A stretch of 47,229 nucleotides of DNA from Caldisericota bacterium. Its GTDB lineage: Bacteria; Caldisericota; Caldisericia; Caldisericales; Caldisericaceae. Position numbers and translations under genes: made by a program. This document shows, one piece after another, positions 765 through 8,467 of this stretch. The stretch is taken from positions 1 to 47,229 of the forward strand of contig QMOQ01000003.1 in assembly GCA_003650285.1 (NCBI GenBank), written 5' to 3'. Position 1 is the first letter of the stretch. Each line of letters begins with the position of its first letter. Below the pieces are notes generated by a model. It searched no databases, was not told the DNA's origin, and saw only the letters and a list, made by a program, of their open reading frames with translations.

Positions 765-2036
765 TTATAATCCTCTTACGATGACAATGGGGGTTTGTTG
801 GTCTTCATTTCCCGCAGGATTGTCAGAAAGTACTTTCTCCAGTTTATCCTTTGATACGCCCTTACTGTATCCTACTGCCCAGGCATCTCCAAGGTCGTTT
901 GCATCAATGATTGCTGCTCTGCAGCCAGTTCTCTCTGTGATTTTTTCACTTACTGTAAATGAATCCTTTGGTCCGGGTATGACAGCATAATCAAAAGGTG
1001 GGATTGCAGCAGGTGGATCATCTATTAGAGCAGCTTGTTCTCCTGCAATAATGTAAAACCAGCCCTTTTTACCAAAGATTCTTCCTATAGCCCCGGCTTT
1101 TGTCGCGAGGATAATACGTGTTTTACCTGCTTCTCTTATTGCTATTTCCATTGCTGCAGGGTTTGCAAGTGGTGCTGCCCCGCCAAATGGTACATCCTTA
1201 TGCGACACAAAATGCGAAACAAGTCTTGCAAGAAAGGATGGGAAAATTGTATCTACTGTTATCATTCTTTCCTCACACATTGCAGCAACACAGGAGGAAA
1301 TAGTAATAATGTCATTTTTTTTTCTTACGCTTTTTGTATACTTATCTATTATGTCGTAGAGGTTATCTCCCTCTTTTATAAGTGGCGTTTTTATGGGGAT
1401 TCTCTCTATATCGGGAATTGTTAACCTAACTTTTCTTTCTCTGAATGGGAAATCTTCGCTTTGGAAGTTTTTCTTTGCAAATTCATATAAATTTTTATAT
1501 CCAGGGTGGGCTTTTATTCCGAGTGTTAAAACTTTTATGGCACGTTCTTTTTTACCCTGGTTAATCAAAACTTCTGCAAATTTCTTAAAATCGGATGCAT
1601 AAAAATCAGATGGCTCAAGTGCAATAAATAATTCAAAATATTTTTCTGCATTGCCAAAATCTTTTTCTTCATAATTTATATTGGAAAGTCTTTTCAGAAA
1701 ATATCTGTAAGGGGACATTGTAGTTTTTATTGGTTTATCAAACAATGCAAGTCCTTCTTCATATACTTTAATGGCGTTGTCCGCATCTTCTAAGTCAAAA
1801 TAGTATAGGTCTCCGAGCATTAAATAGAGCCATCTATTATCTGGATTTGCCCTAATTCCGTCTTTTAGTACGGCTATTGCTTTTTCTTTTTCACCTGATT
1901 TAAGGTATAGTTTTGAGAGCAAATGGTGTGCCCCTACTCGATTTTTTTTATGTGTGTTTATAAACTCTTTGAGTAGCTCTATTGCTTTTGCTCTATTGTT
2001 TTCTTTTATTTTTTTTGCTTTTTCTATAACGTTCAT
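765..2036 (-). CDS. TPR-repeat protein fused to a CofE-like (F420-0:gamma-glutamyl ligase family) domain
   Basis: 423 aa. The first ~195 residues are tetratricopeptide-like helical repeats (for example NPDNRWLYLMLGDLYYFDLEDADNA), normally a protein-binding scaffold. From about residue 210 the sequence resembles the coenzyme F420-0:L-glutamate ligase family: RIPIKTPLIKEGDNLYDII at the start, then FYIIAGEQAALIDDPPAAIP, IIDANDLGDAWAVG and a closing DNPAGNEDQQTPIVIVRG, which match the bacterial branch as I recall it. CofE itself adds glutamate to F420-0. Many bacterial relatives occur without known F420 synthesis, so the substrate here is unknown. There is no signal peptide or membrane segment, so it is probably cytoplasmic. 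A 177-base gap separates it from the upstream operon, so it probably has its own promoter. The family call is fairly sure; the activity is not. Confidence 0.75.
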   Translation of the reverse strand: MNVIEKAKKIKENNRAKAIELLKEFINTHKKNRVGAHHLLSKLYLKSGEKEKAIAVLKDGIRANPDNRWLYLMLGDLYYFDLEDADNAIKVYEEGLALFDKPIKTTMSPYRYFLKRLSNINYEEKDFGNAEKYFELFIALEPSDFYASDFKKFAEVLINQGKKERAIKVLTLGIKAHPGYKNLYEFAKKNFQSEDFPFRERKVRLTIPDIERIPIKTPLIKEGDNLYDIIDKYTKSVRKKNDIITISSCVAAMCEERMITVDTIFPSFLARLVSHFVSHKDVPFGGAAPLANPAAMEIAIREAGKTRIILATKAGAIGRIFGKKGWFYIIAGEQAALIDDPPAAIPPFDYAVIPGPKDSFTVSEKITERTGCRAAIIDANDLGDAWAVGYSKGVSKDKLEKVLSDNPAGNEDQQTPIVIVRGL

Positions 2037-2984: not shown

Positions 2985-4198
2985 GCGCCAAATTTTTTTA
3001 GTTTTAAGGAGTGAGCAAGCATTAAGACAATTTCATTTTTTGCCTCAAATCTGCCAAGTCCTCCTTTGGTTCCAATTTCTCTCTCTGAAAAATATTCTGT
3101 TCGGTCAGGGCGTGCATAAGGTGAAAAAAGAACAAATGGCACTCCATGAAAGCTATGTTGTTTCATTATGGCAGGTGTAGAATGGTCGCATGTAATAGTT
3201 AGCACGGTAGGATTCAATTTAAGTATTTCAGGAATAATTTTTTCATCTACTTCTTCTATAAGGCGTACTTTGGCGTCGAAGTTTCCGTCTTCACCATACG
3301 AATCTGTTTTCTTTATATGAAAGTAGAAAAAATCATATTTATCATAATTTTCTTTAAGTGTTTTTAATTCATCCATGATATCTGTACTGCCTACATCTAA
3401 TATGTCCATACCAACGAGTTTGGCGAGCCCCTTGTACATAGGGTATGTTGCAATAGCTACTGGTTTTAAGCCGTATATTTCTGTCATTGTCTGTATTTTA
3501 GGATATGAAGAAAATCCTCGCAACAGTAATCCATTGGCTGGATGTTGGTCTTTTATAATACTGTTTGCTTTTTCAATAAATTCATTCACTATTTTGGCAC
3601 TTTTTTTTGCTTTTGCGTCTAAGAAATTGCATTTTAGCGGGGCAACGCCAGTAGCTTGTGGGTCAGTATCGGTAAGTTCATCTGAAAGATCTTCTCCTCT
3701 GAAAACTGCGACGAACCGATAATCCATCACAGGCTTTATAAATATTTCAGTATCATAAATTTTCTTTATCTTATTTTGTATCATTTCAGTAAGTTTTTTA
3801 CAGTGTTCTGTTGGTATTCTGCCAGCTCTTCGGTCAAGTATTTTATTGGTACTATCAAGTGTTGCAAAATTACCCCTTACTGCTATATCGCCCTGCTTTA
3901 GCGGAAAACCAATACCTAAAGCAGCCAAAATGCCTCTGCCTATTATGTATTTGATAGGATCGTAACCAAAAATGCTGAGATGTCCGGGTCCTGATCCGGG
4001 AGTAATGCCCATTGAAACAGGATCTGCAATACCTGTAATGGAATTTCTTGTTATGAAATCAAAATTTGGAGCATATGCAGTTTCAATCTCTGTTTTGCCT
4101 AACTTGTTTGGTATACCTCCAACACCATCTAACACCATGAGGATTATTTTATTATTGTTTTTTACTATTAAATTTTTGATGAATTCTTGCGATATCAC
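2981..4198 (-). CDS. apgM: 2,3-bisphosphoglycerate-independent phosphoglycerate mutase, archaeal type
   Basis: Interconverts 3- and 2-phosphoglycerate in glycolysis and gluconeogenesis, in the cytoplasm. 405 aa, the usual ApgM length and shorter than GpmI (about 510 aa). Visible metal-binding and nucleophile regions of the alkaline phosphatase superfamily are MVLDGVGG at the N-terminus, GSGPGHLSIFGYDP (the nucleophile Ser region), and TCDHSTPAIMKQHSFHGVP near the C-terminus with the Asp/His metal ligands. ApgM is common in archaea and in deep-branching anaerobic bacteria. It overlaps the upstream DnaB-like gene and the downstream CinA-like gene by 4 bases each, so all three are probably translationally coupled. 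Confidence 0.93.
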   Translation of the reverse strand: MISQEFIKNLIVKNNNKIILMVLDGVGGIPNKLGKTEIETAYAPNFDFITRNSITGIADPVSMGITPGSGPGHLSIFGYDPIKYIIGRGILAALGIGFPLKQGDIAVRGNFATLDSTNKILDRRAGRIPTEHCKKLTEMIQNKIKKIYDTEIFIKPVMDYRFVAVFRGEDLSDELTDTDPQATGVAPLKCNFLDAKAKKSAKIVNEFIEKANSIIKDQHPANGLLLRGFSSYPKIQTMTEIYGLKPVAIATYPMYKGLAKLVGMDILDVGSTDIMDELKTLKENYDKYDFFYFHIKKTDSYGEDGNFDAKVRLIEEVDEKIIPEILKLNPTVLTITCDHSTPAIMKQHSFHGVPFVLFSPYARPDRTEYFSEREIGTKGGLGRFEAKNEIVLMLAHSLKLKKFGA

Positions 4199-5721
4199 TT
4201 TTCTTCTCCTTTTTCATATTTTGTTGCATCTCCTTGCATAGGCATAAGATACCTATTATCCATCATCCACTCGAATATTTTTGAAATTTTCGCATATGTA
4301 TACTCTTCTTCTATATCTTTATATTCAATTTCTACGAGGTTATTGTCTTCGATGAGGAATAGATACTGGATAATAATATCTCCTCCAAGAGGAGCATCTC
4401 TGTTTTTATCTACATAGAGATTTAAAATCTCAAAATGTGGTATTTGAGTTGGATTGATTCTTCCTTCTTTTGCAGCATTGTCAATCTTTTCATGAAGAGC
4501 GGCGGTATCTTGGAAATCTTTTGTAAGAATGAGTGCAACATCTGAATCGTATTCTATGTCTCCTCCGCCTGTGCAGTTAAACATGGTAGGTCTTGTTGTA
4601 CTTTTTTTTGAATCAAGGCGACATCCTTCTTTATCAAATGAAGAAACAGCAAAAACTGGACATTTTAACTCCATAGACAAACTTGCTAGACCACCCGAAA
4701 CATCATCTACTTGTTGAGCAAGATCCTGGTAAAGAATTGGAGTAGGAACTTTTTGCAGGTAATCGACAAATATTACTATTTTGTCTGTGTTTGCTTCCTG
4801 CATGACTGAAAAAGCGTGGCTCTTTATTCTATTAATGGTATCCTCTCTTCTTCCTTCGACAAGGTAGAGATAGTTCATATAACTTTCTGTTTTTGCATAG
4901 CCGCGGTTAAATCTTTCCTTAAGCTCTGAATTGCTTATAATATTTGTTGTTTCAAGCACATAAGGAGGTATCAATGTTTCTTGAGAAAAAATTCGCAGAA
5001 ATAAAACTCTTGAAGTTTGTTCCCATGAATAAAATAGAACAGGTATATGTTCATTGCTTGCAATATACGAAGCGACTCTTAGCATAAGGTTTGTTTTACC
5101 TCTCCGGGGTGCACCTGCTAACGCATAATAAAATCCGGGCCTTGCACCAGAAAGAGTTTCATTCAGGCAACGAAATGGCTCTAAAGAGTATCCAAGAATA
5201 AAATTTTTATTAGATTCTCTTGATTCAACTTCTGAAGAGAACATGATAAGCTGTGTTCGTACGGGGCTAAGTCTTTTTTTAACTCTTTTTCGCATGATAT
5301 CGTGAACTTCATTAATTATTTCTCCTGTAAATTCTGTAAGATCTTTTTTCTGCTCCCTTTCCTTTATATAAGATTCTATATGTTTTCCTATGGACATAAG
5401 CCTTTCTTCTGATTTCCTTTTTTTGAGAATGTCTATATATAAAACAAGTGATTCAAGGTTTAATGGTGTAATTGTTGCAGCTTTATCAACTAATTTGCCC
5501 AAGTTTGTCGTGTATATTCCACTTTCCTCAAATTCCGTTTTTATTAAAGTAGGTTCTGGGATTTCTTCTTTTTTACCATATTTTTTAAGGATATAGCCAA
5601 CAAGGATTTTTTCTTCATAAGCAGTAAAAAGATCTTTTTCTAAACCATTTTTTATGCTGCTAAGCAAAAGGAATTTATCCTTAAGTATGGAACCAATTAA
5701 TTTTATTGCGATTTCATCCAT
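4195..5721 (-). CDS. DnaB-like RecA-fold ATPase/helicase
   Basis: 508 aa with the DnaB layout. The N-terminal helical region starts IGSILKDKFLL, like the DnaB N-domain. A linker of ~100 residues follows, then a C-terminal ATPase domain from about residue 175. Walker A is GAPRRGKT (residues 203-210) and Walker B is IVIFVDYLQK. Counterparts of later DnaB motifs are GGGDIEYDSDVALIL and LYVDKNRDAPLGG. Several motifs are altered: the usual SLEM reads SWEQ and the SQL(S/N)R motif reads SSFDKEG. This could be the replicative helicase of the genome or a diverged paralogue with another role; a second dnaB elsewhere would decide. It overlaps the amidohydrolase stop by 19 bases and the apgM start by 4. 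No primase or other replication gene is nearby. Confidence 0.8.
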   Translation of the reverse strand: MDEIAIKLIGSILKDKFLLLSSIKNGLEKDLFTAYEEKILVGYILKKYGKKEEIPEPTLIKTEFEESGIYTTNLGKLVDKAATITPLNLESLVLYIDILKKRKSEERLMSIGKHIESYIKEREQKKDLTEFTGEIINEVHDIMRKRVKKRLSPVRTQLIMFSSEVESRESNKNFILGYSLEPFRCLNETLSGARPGFYYALAGAPRRGKTNLMLRVASYIASNEHIPVLFYSWEQTSRVLFLRIFSQETLIPPYVLETTNIISNSELKERFNRGYAKTESYMNYLYLVEGRREDTINRIKSHAFSVMQEANTDKIVIFVDYLQKVPTPILYQDLAQQVDDVSGGLASLSMELKCPVFAVSSFDKEGCRLDSKKSTTRPTMFNCTGGGDIEYDSDVALILTKDFQDTAALHEKIDNAAKEGRINPTQIPHFEILNLYVDKNRDAPLGGDIIIQYLFLIEDNNLVEIEYKDIEEEYTYAKISKIFEWMMDNRYLMPMQGDATKYEKGEEK

Positions 5722-7190
5722 TCTATCCCTCCTATAATATTTTTTATTATAATTATATTCATTATATCATTAAAATGAAATAATGATTTATCCAGTAAAA
5801 TAAAATCTGCAAGATAACCATTTTTGATTTTTCCACTTACATTTTCTGCAAAGCTTGCAAATGCACTGCCAGTTGTGTATGCATCAAAAGCTTCTTTTCT
5901 GGAAATACATTCTTCTGGTACAAAAGGGTTTGTGCTGTTTGGCGAAATCCTGGTAGTAGCAGCATATATGCCTTGAAGCGGAGATGCATCCTCAACAGGT
6001 GCATCAGAGCCGAATGCAAGCAGTTTACCGCTGTTTAAAACTGTTTTCCATGGATATGCATATCTGTAATTTCCTATCAATTTTTTAACAAGAGCGGCAT
6101 CTGCAGTGGCATGTATTGGTTGCATGGATGCTATACAATGAGTCCTTTGAAGCAGCGAGAGATCTTTTTCATTGATGAACTGGAGATGCTCGATTCTGTT
6201 TCGCATTTTTTGATTTCCAAAACGACTAAAAAGGCTCATTACAGTATGTACAGCCTTATCTCCAATTGCATGTACGGCAACCTGGATATCATTTTCATTT
6301 GCAAGACTTATTATATTATTCAATTCGTCTTTTTCCATTGTGAAAGAGGAAGGAAATCCATTTACTCTGTACATGGCAGCAGTTTGTGAGCCAAGTGAGC
6401 CATCCATGAAGCATTTTAGTGGGCCGAAGCGTAAGTTTTTATCACCCAATCCGGTATGTATTTTCTCATTAATGACATCCCCTAGTGAGTTCTTTTCAAT
6501 GCCTTGATATATACGTATTTTTAAATCTTTATTTTTGTTTATATTATTTAAAAGCGGGTAGATAGAAAAATCAAAGTTTGTGGCGGAAACAATGCCTCTT
6601 TTTAACAGATACTTTTCTGCGTTTTTTACATCTTTTATAGATATTTGTCTTTCTTTTATGCTTTTAACGAGCTCGATAGCACGGTCTTTTAATATTCCAA
6701 TAAATTTTCCTTTATTTTTTACTAACACATCACCTCTAATTCTTTTTAGAGCGATTTGTTTTTCTTTTAAAGCTGCTTTGTTTACAAAAACCGAATGCTC
6801 ATCTTTACTCTGTATGAAAACTGGTTTTTTATTGTATTCAAAGAGTTTTTCCCATTCATTTCTGGAAAAATTATTGAAGTTAAGGTTGTAGATGTAGACA
6901 AAATTTTTGTCATTTCCTTCAATTAAACGTTTGACACATTGATAGCTTTTACAGTTAGTAGCATTCTCAGAGGAAAGGAGTAGCGCGATTTCTTTTATAT
7001 GCACATGTGCGTCGTTAAAACCGGGGTACAAGAAACCATCATATTTTTTTTCCCGGACAAATGGAAATTGTTGTTTTATTAGATTTCTTTTGCCAATTAC
7101 TTGTATTATCCCATTCTCCACAACAACTGAATAATCTTTTTTTTCTGTCTTGTTGATATAAATTGAATCAGCAGAAAAAATCGTTTTCAT
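5703..7190 (-). CDS. Amidohydrolase family protein, YtcJ/Amidohydro_3-like
   Basis: 495 aa metal-dependent hydrolase of the amidohydrolase superfamily. Visible landmarks are GFLYPGFNDAHVHI (metal-binding HxH after beta strand 1), MDGSLGSQTAAMY, VAVHAIGDKAV (His), RIEHLQF (His) and LLAFGSDAPVE (catalytic Asp). The order and the GSLGS segment fit the YtcJ-like branch. Members of this branch are often annotated as predicted amidohydrolases of unknown substrate, so a specific reaction should not be assigned. There is no signal peptide; it is probably cytoplasmic. It overlaps the GerMN gene stop by 4 bases (ATGA) and the next gene by 19 bases. Confidence 0.9.
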   Translation of the reverse strand: MKTIFSADSIYINKTEKKDYSVVVENGIIQVIGKRNLIKQQFPFVREKKYDGFLYPGFNDAHVHIKEIALLLSSENATNCKSYQCVKRLIEGNDKNFVYIYNLNFNNFSRNEWEKLFEYNKKPVFIQSKDEHSVFVNKAALKEKQIALKRIRGDVLVKNKGKFIGILKDRAIELVKSIKERQISIKDVKNAEKYLLKRGIVSATNFDFSIYPLLNNINKNKDLKIRIYQGIEKNSLGDVINEKIHTGLGDKNLRFGPLKCFMDGSLGSQTAAMYRVNGFPSSFTMEKDELNNIISLANENDIQVAVHAIGDKAVHTVMSLFSRFGNQKMRNRIEHLQFINEKDLSLLQRTHCIASMQPIHATADAALVKKLIGNYRYAYPWKTVLNSGKLLAFGSDAPVEDASPLQGIYAATTRISPNSTNPFVPEECISRKEAFDAYTTGSAFASFAENVSGKIKNGYLADFILLDKSLFHFNDIMNIIIIKNIIGGIEWMKSQ

Positions 7191-8467
7191 TGTCTTGTTA
7201 GAAGAAATTCTTCTTTGTTAATAATAAGTTTGACTTTTTTTACATTAGGCAACTCTGTGTATGAAAGCATGATTTGCTGTTTGATTTTGTCTATATTAAA
7301 GTTTACATCTTCGGGAATAGATATTTCCATAATAAGAGTAAAATTTTCTGTTCTGTAAGAAAGAAGTGTGCTATTTTCGGGTAAGTATGTATCAAATTCT
7401 GAAGAGTCTTTTAATAGGATAAACAGTGTTTCTATAGGATTTTGTGAGTTTATTGTTTTTACAACGGGCATAAAAAATTGTTCTTCTCCTTCTGTATAAA
7501 CATAATATGGGATTATTGCTTCGCCTTCTTCAGTTAGTGCAAAAAAGCGTTTTATAGGGTGTGATATGTTAGTACTGCCAAAAAGAGTGGGAACAACCTT
7601 TCCGTCTATTAAAATCTGAACAGATGTAATATCCGGTAATTCTGTGAGCGTATTTACTATTGAAAGCACTGTGAGATATTCAGCATGAGATCCCAGTGGA
7701 TGGTTAAGTATATCTAATGAGAAATCAATAGTGACAATGCCACCTGATTGAATATAAAAATCATTCAGTATGTCAATGTCTTCTGGAAAAGGAGAGCTGA
7801 GGCCTTTTAGTGACCCATAAAAAAGCTCTTGAAGAATTTCTTTTGTTAATGCAACTGGATCAGTTTTTGGGATTATCTCTCTTTTTTCAAGGAGAAGGTT
7901 GCCCCCATTTAGATTAGAGAAATACAGGAGCACTTCTTTTCCTTGTGGTAAAACTCCCGAATAGTGTGCAATAGGGTGATCAATTTGAATGTAATGATTA
8001 AAATAATCCTTCTTTTCATTATCTATTAAAATCTGAACTGATGTAATATCTGGCAATTCTGTGAGAGTGTTTACTAATCCATATACTCTTATGGCTTCTT
8101 TTCTGACACTGAGTGATGCGATTTTTGTAGCTGCTTCATTTAAATTTAACGTGCATACTCCATCCTCTATGTTTATCGATTTTACAACGGTATCGCTATT
8201 TAAAGGAGAGAATAGGTCGTTCTGTACAGGTGTTTTAAGTGTGTCTATTATTTTTATTACGGCGAGCGTATTGCTGCTGGGAATTTTGATTTCTTTTTCC
8301 GTTGGTATGAGTTCTTTTCCTATAGGGTCATAGTAGTAGAGTTTTACTATAGTTTTCTTACCCGTCGTTTTTAAACGAAGATTTAAATAAAGATAGGAAC
8401 CTGTTAGAATGATTGCAACAAATAGAATCAGAGCAATTAAACGGACCACTGTTTTTTTATTCTTCAT
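7187..8467 (-). CDS. Membrane-anchored protein with three GerMN-type repeats
   Basis: 426 aa. A basic N-terminus and one membrane segment (residues ~7-29, VVRLIALILFVAIILTGSYLY) with no lipobox suggest an uncleaved anchor with an extracytoplasmic body. The rest looks like three GerMN (sporulation/germination) domains, roughly residues 38-165, 166-305 and 306-426. The first two share the identical 18-residue segment VNTLTELPDITSVQILID. The third is degenerate but keeps the end (SYTELPNVKKVKLIINKE). GerMN domains also occur in non-sporulating bacteria, where their role is unclear; cell-wall or septum association is only an inference. It is the first gene of a coupled operon. A possible -10 (TACAAT) lies six bases before the ATG and there is no clear ribosome binding site. 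Confidence 0.82.
   Translation of the reverse strand: MKNKKTVVRLIALILFVAIILTGSYLYLNLRLKTTGKKTIVKLYYYDPIGKELIPTEKEIKIPSSNTLAVIKIIDTLKTPVQNDLFSPLNSDTVVKSINIEDGVCTLNLNEAATKIASLSVRKEAIRVYGLVNTLTELPDITSVQILIDNEKKDYFNHYIQIDHPIAHYSGVLPQGKEVLLYFSNLNGGNLLLEKREIIPKTDPVALTKEILQELFYGSLKGLSSPFPEDIDILNDFYIQSGGIVTIDFSLDILNHPLGSHAEYLTVLSIVNTLTELPDITSVQILIDGKVVPTLFGSTNISHPIKRFFALTEEGEAIIPYYVYTEGEEQFFMPVVKTINSQNPIETLFILLKDSSEFDTYLPENSTLLSYRTENFTLIMEISIPEDVNFNIDKIKQQIMLSYTELPNVKKVKLIINKEEFLLTRQ
7605..7659. repeat. 55-bp direct repeat, copy A (GerMN gene)
   Basis: This stretch encodes the VNTLTELPDITSVQILID end of the second GerMN domain. It differs from copy B at only 5 of 55 positions, although the flanking parts of the two domains are much more diverged. 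Confidence 0.85.
8022..8076. repeat. 55-bp direct repeat, copy B (GerMN gene)
   Basis: Counterpart of the repeat at 7605-7659, in the same orientation and reading frame, encoding the end of the first GerMN domain. Confidence 0.85.

Follow-up and report, generated by a model that had tools for sequence, protein, structure and literature searches.

A TPR-repeat protein from Caldisericota with a CofE-fold domain best explained as a non-F420 subfamily member, and the envelope associations of its relatives

The F420-0:gamma-glutamyl ligase CofE uses GTP to activate a lactyl carboxylate, couples L-glutamate to it, and holds F420 through F92, residues G153 to C155, R234 of the dimer partner and a domain-swapped hairpin (PMC10861534). 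An F420-0:gamma-glutamyl ligase homologue, QimC, has also been described in Streptococcus pyogenes, where it is encoded with a flippase in a wall-modification operon (PMC13059722). A literature search for CofE combined with TPR repeats or with an amidase found no paper. Here we analyzed a gene in a 47,229-nucleotide stretch of DNA (the window) from a Caldisericota genome of 0.95 Mb that is about 80% complete. The original prediction for this gene was an unusual fusion of TPR repeats to a CofE-like domain, suggesting a partner protein and perhaps gamma-glutamylation of something other than F420. The coordinates of the gene, its conserved motifs and the fusions found in relatives are given in Table 1.

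Table 1. Coordinates of the TPR-ligase gene in the window, its conserved motifs and fused relatives in other genomes.
Feature	Position	Strand	Basis or remark
Whole gene, TPR/CofE-like ligase fusion	765..2036	-	423 aa plus stop, ATG start
TPR scaffold of five helix pairs with a capping helix, residues 1-195	1452..2036	-	Pfam TPR models, AlphaFold helices
CofE-fold (F420_ligase, PF01996) domain, residues 208-423	768..1415	-	Pfam, AlphaFold, Foldseek, profile-profile
T217	1386..1388	-	Invariant in 101/101; loop equivalent to CofE residues 10-14, which we take to be the GTP loop
D339	1020..1022	-	Invariant in 101/101; five residues past the column aligned with CofE D109
D378-A-N380-D381 (DAND motif)	894..905	-	Invariant or nearly so
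N406-P-x-G-N....T-P416 motif	789..821	-	Replaces the CofE MGEGGDGIP loop
C-terminus, P416 to stop (PIVIVRGL)	765..791	-	CofE continues for ~28 residues including the F420-stacking R234 (PMC10861534)
Amidase_3-ligase fusion	L120:2359-3960	-	
Amidase_3-ligase fusion	L121:1592-3253	+	
Amidase_3-ligase fusion	L128:1572-3248	+	
Amidase_3-ligase fusion	L130:1461-3074	+	
CDP-alcohol phosphatidyltransferase-ligase fusion	L084:1763-3136	+	
CDP-alcohol phosphatidyltransferase-ligase fusion	L085:1827-3161	+	

The predicted fusion was confirmed by Pfam, AlphaFold, Foldseek, profile-profile comparison and a conserved junction. TPR_14 and other TPR models of Pfam match residues ~10-195 (best 7e-16), and tandem 34-residue helix-turn-helix repeats, about five of which make up the N-terminal part, are present according to both Pfam and AlphaFold. 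The F420_ligase model PF01996 matches residues 215-301 at 8e-9 (35.8 bits against a gathering score of 25); this is its single match in the gene's own, ~80% complete genome, and 24 of 25 family members match it at E 0.01 or better. A full-length AlphaFold2 model, obtained from a 28-row alignment (pLDDT 89.1, pTM 0.86), shows 11 TPR-type helices over residues 3-190 followed by an alpha/beta domain. The best five PDB matches in Foldseek were all Archaeoglobus fulgidus CofE entries (2phn, 7uld and 2g9i; E 5e-7 to 2e-6), with TM scores by target of 0.56-0.60, and TPR proteins ranked after these. Profile-profile alignment (hhalign) with ten true CofE sequences covered the full domain (E 1e-12 to 7e-15, probability 97.7-98.6%); in a direct PDB profile search the alignment was confined to CofE residues 4-72. 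A viral fold library returned TPR matches only, no relatives were found in a CofE scan of viral contigs, and the protein has no membrane segment. The junction of the two parts is kept in all close relatives, which excludes a read-through or frame error. Its product is best explained as a cytosolic two-part protein, consisting of a TPR scaffold and a CofE-fold domain from a separate, non-F420 subfamily.

The surroundings of the gene gave no indication of F420 metabolism, in agreement with the original prediction that nothing in the window suggests F420 biosynthesis, and the genome check for cofC, cofD and cofH likewise left a PF01996 protein without an F420 context. CofD and CofH were above the family cut-off in 0 of 54 Caldisericota genomes, and none of these genomes contained a genuine CofC; the few CofC matches were barely above the cut-off (22-25 bits) and, lying mostly in frames of 328-457 aa or in one 210 aa frame, look from their length like related nucleotidyltransferases. 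Likewise, 56 genomes from other lineages that carry the ligase yielded no CofD above the cut-off. The CofD and CofH searches matched above cut-off in methanogens and Haloferax, which served as positive controls. The gene's own genome is only ~80% complete, and its relatives agree on the absence of the pathway, including a one-contig, 99% complete genome. The CofE equivalog models scored far below their cut-offs (TIGR01916, 23.9 against 180.65 bits; NF009809, 26.5 against 274 bits). The elements that grip F420 are also missing or reduced: the protein ends at TPIVIVRGL and lacks the tail bearing R234, and the hairpin region is shortened, with 38 residues between D378 and P416 compared to 64 between D150 and P214 in CofE. 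Because both the pathway genes and the F420 contacts are missing, the protein is not an F420 ligase. With the pathway absent and the contacts lost, yet the domain conserved under purifying selection, the best reading is that its substrate is not F420, as had been proposed.

The residues conserved in the subfamily differ from those of CofE. T217, G325, D339, D378 and N380 are 100% identical among 101 family members, and D242, A270, G304, F327, G332, D381, N406, P407 and P416 are nearly invariant, so that the set as a whole stands at 98-100% identity. In the 2007 CofE structure, metal is reportedly bound by D109, D150, T151 and E208, and GTP is touched by K45 and N112. At the aligned positions the subfamily keeps neither D109 nor the CofE-invariant K45, S111, N112, R154 and R157, and has N or Q in place of E208. 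Among the CofE motifs S44-K45, D109-x-S-N, D150, G153-R154 and R157, just the equivalents of D150 and G153 are probably kept; D150 aligns with D378 in a deep profile and with N380 in a shallower one, leaving its exact column uncertain. As judged from these alignments, the metal/nucleotide site has been rewritten, with one acidic ligand probably retained and T217, D339, D378, N380, D381, N406 and P407 forming a new invariant set. Alignment with the CofE contacts, which the original prediction had called for, thus gave a mixed outcome, in that the parts gripping F420 are lost and the GTP and metal residues are partly lost (K45, D109, N112 and E208 gone, D150 probably present). A site that is rewritten but strictly conserved more likely belongs to an enzyme with a changed substrate than to a relic.

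Of 54 Caldisericota genomes, 49 carry the ligase domain; among 300 genomes sampled from the Bacillota phylum of a Syntrophomonadaceae relative the count is 137, taken at E 0.001 or better and including some weak partial matches to other CofE-like paralogues. Named relatives of the protein are two CPR bacteria and members of Bacillota and Caldisericota. A tree of 107 ligase domains places the Caldisericia TPR fusions in one clade with those of the Bacillota family Fermentithermobacillaceae (SH-aLRT 99, 19 rows), and the fusion is therefore old and stable and no local accident; four diverged TPR-like fusions from a further Caldisericota family, f3, fall on a long branch of unsure placement. The description of the fusion as unusual needs to be qualified, as the TPR fusion is standard in Caldisericota, and fusions to an amidase, a PgsA-like protein or a membrane helix also exist. 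Purifying selection on the ligase domain is strong: dN/dS in close pairs is 0.04-0.07 there, compared to 0.19-0.23 in the TPR part. One Caldisericota genome (G024) carries a tandem duplicate of the diverged TPR-ligase gene (L087:1623-2966(-) and 2986-4347(-)).

In the window, the gene lies among gltX, apgM, a MoCF/CinA-like gene and a DnaB-like gene and has neither an envelope neighbour nor an envelope fusion, and no conserved gene neighbourhood that could serve as a substrate clue was found in Caldisericota. The DnaB-like gene (4195-5721(-)) encodes a 508 aa protein with the DnaB-like helicase C-terminal domain at residues 183-446, and its N-terminal part matched no Pfam family at 0.001. Elsewhere in the window, the product of 7187-8467(-) carries a hydrophobic segment at its N-terminus and is internally duplicated; both halves contain NTLTELPDITSVQILID, and the duplication resembles GerMN-type repeats.

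Outside the window, the subfamily is recurrently fused or coupled to cell-envelope proteins, which is a new finding of this analysis. Fusions of Amidase_3 (N-acetylmuramoyl-L-alanine amidase) to the ligase occur in Bacillota loci L120, L121, L122, L128, L129, L130 and L133, the last being cut by a contig end. They are 533-558 aa long (626 aa in L122), with Amidase_3 in the middle and the CofE-like domain at the C-terminus, and the amidase matches range from 8e-28 to 2e-38 in the four fusions scanned. These proteins have no evident signal peptide, and a cytosolic amidase-ligase would be odd in itself. Sister genomes encode the two as neighbouring but separate genes with the amidase just upstream (L160, L170 and L173, with an overlap of 14 nt in L173), and L142, L154 and L156 have a diverged amidase homologue next to the ligase in divergent orientation; the homologues beside the ligase are sometimes degenerate. 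Two distant clades (L120, L128 and L130; L147, L153 and L155) have a gene for a SpoVB/MurJ-like flippase next to the ligase.

Caldisericota family f7 provides another kind of association, in which a PgsA-like CDP-alcohol phosphatidyltransferase is fused to the ligase (L084 and L085) or its gene overlaps that of the ligase (L083, L086 and L088), and is the sole PF01066 protein detected in those genomes. Separately, no CDP-alcohol phosphatidyltransferase match at all was obtained in 41 of the 54 Caldisericota genomes, one of them a single contig that is 99% complete, and this result suggests unusual phospholipid synthesis; in genomes G019-G022 the PF01066 domain is part of a frame of ~436 aa that may encode a two-domain inositol-phosphate enzyme of the kind that makes DIP-type compatible solutes. 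In Clostridia and Negativicutes, a beta-sandwich protein with one transmembrane (TM) segment is encoded immediately upstream of the ligase in 13 surveyed loci and is fused to it in L069 and L132; fold searches with this partner found nothing beyond weak, generic similarity to adaptin-ear and ApaG-like sandwiches. It was absent from the 54 Caldisericota genomes in a search whose positive control detected it in 7 of 10. The Fermentithermobacillaceae TPR fusions, in turn, have a hydrophobic segment at the N-terminus. By association, the amidase, flippase, phosphatidyltransferase, one-TM and hydrophobic-segment links point to the membrane and envelope, the neighbour survey being descriptive and the family sample non-random. 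A partner protein for the TPR half, as originally suggested, is plausible in light of these fused and coupled relatives.

Several further candidates were discarded. A clustering hint that the Clostridial upstream partner shares ancestry with the TPR half was rejected, as that partner is the one-helix beta-sandwich missing from the 54 Caldisericota genomes. The divergent PvlArgDC and YqeY genes beside the Clostridial version represent shared housekeeping synteny and not a functional clue. Long upstream extensions in the GC-rich loci L123, L125 and L131 were shadow frames, as was the frame behind a "PgsA" regex match in L124.

We tentatively favor an NTP-dependent amide ligase, perhaps a gamma-glutamyl ligase, that acts on an envelope-related carboxylate and is docked through its TPRs. 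The CofE-fold domain would be an active, NTP- and metal-dependent enzyme that activates the carboxylate as an acyl phosphate and joins it to an amino acid, by analogy glutamate. The substrate may come from cell-envelope metabolism as a peptidoglycan, lipid-headgroup or wall-polymer intermediate, and the TPRs would bring the ligase to a partner, as the fused amidase, PgsA-like and membrane-anchored domains may do in relatives. Against this reading stand the lack of an envelope neighbour in the window and of conserved neighbourhoods in Caldisericota, the CofE GTP and metal residues K45, D109, N112 and E208 that are not retained at the aligned positions, and the generic nature of TPRs, which leaves the envelope link one of association.

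Other explanations account for parts of the same evidence. The chance that two adjacent genes were taken as one, or that the ligase match is fortuitous, is practically negligible: the weak Pfam span at residues 215-301 would by itself allow it, but an identical open frame and junction recur across all close relatives, the full-length model is confident and both halves are under purifying selection. True gamma-glutamyl ligation of F420-0 or a deazaflavin, in a host importing FO or F420-0, would agree with the Pfam and CofE fold matches; it is nevertheless very improbable given the absence of CofC, CofD and CofH from the 54 Caldisericota genomes, the TIGR01916 score far below cut-off, the missing tail and shortened hairpin region, and the presence of the domain in many other lineages without cofD.

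More weight attaches to two readings that share the non-F420 premise. An active amide or gamma-glutamyl ligase might instead serve a soluble metabolite, a folate-like cofactor or a protein side chain brought by the TPRs, with the envelope links of relatives incidental or lineage-specific. The cytosolic scaffold without a membrane segment, the lack of a conserved envelope neighbour in Caldisericota and a weak match to TIGR04132 ("putative folate metabolism gamma-glutamate ligase") are consistent with this, but that match is far below cut-off (19 against 350 bits) and the subfamily is fused or coupled to envelope proteins in several distinct ways, and we regard a soluble substrate as unlikely. 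Rather unlikely, too, is a catalytically dead domain serving as a ligand- or nucleotide-binding sensor or a scaffold for envelope enzymes. The unconserved CofE positions K45, D109, S111-N112, R154, R157 and E208, the placement of the domain beside other enzymes in the manner of a regulatory module and the degenerate state of some adjacent amidase homologues would fit such a role. The polar residues T217, D339, D378, N380, D381 and N406, invariant across 101 diverse sequences, together with the low dN/dS of the ligase part, fit an active site better, although a strict ligand site would give the same invariant pattern.

Extending the favored envelope ligase to the whole subfamily, we consider, as a doubtful and speculative proposal, an undescribed class of cell-envelope amide ligases on the CofE fold, paired with an amidase in Bacillota and a phosphatidyltransferase in deep Caldisericota and recruited by TPRs in Caldisericia. 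In the Bacillota version, the bond targeted by the amidase, between a lactyl carboxylate and an amino acid, matches in type the lactyl-glutamate bond made by CofE, and an amidase cutting the lactyl-alanine bond of muramic acid would form a chemically coherent pair with a bond-making CofE-like domain. In the deep Caldisericota version, the ligase could follow the phosphatidyltransferase as CofE follows CofD, extending a lipid headgroup. The subfamily scores above the Pfam F420_ligase cut-off, and the name steers annotators to a cofactor that these bacteria do not make. Its amidase, phosphatidyltransferase, membrane and TPR fusions are testable leads to a new amide-forming envelope step and to uses of the CofE fold outside F420.

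Among known systems, QimC presumably belongs to a branch different from the present subfamily. By description, it resembles the present protein as an F420_ligase-fold protein in a host not known for F420, encoded in a wall-modification operon (PMC13059722). Mycobacterial FbiB, a fusion of CofE and nitroreductase, likewise carries a CofE-like domain in a fusion protein; in the present protein the partner is an N-terminal TPR scaffold, and the nitroreductase domain and F420 are absent. CofE itself (A. fulgidus 2G9I, 2PHN and 7ULD; TIGR01916) shares the fold with full-length profile homology, and equivalents of its D34, R49, G100, A106-G107, P214 and probably D150 are kept. Unlike CofE, the protein has the new invariant residues D339, N380 and D381 and an NPxG motif, lacks the C-terminal F420-stacking tail, has a hairpin region ~25 residues shorter and comes from a genome without the F420 pathway. 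The single-domain CofE-like proteins of Bacillota (for example, L055 and L066) belong to the same subfamily at ~35-42% identity and have the same invariant residues; they differ in having no TPRs and in being coupled to the one-TM beta-sandwich protein, amidases or SpoVB-like flippases.
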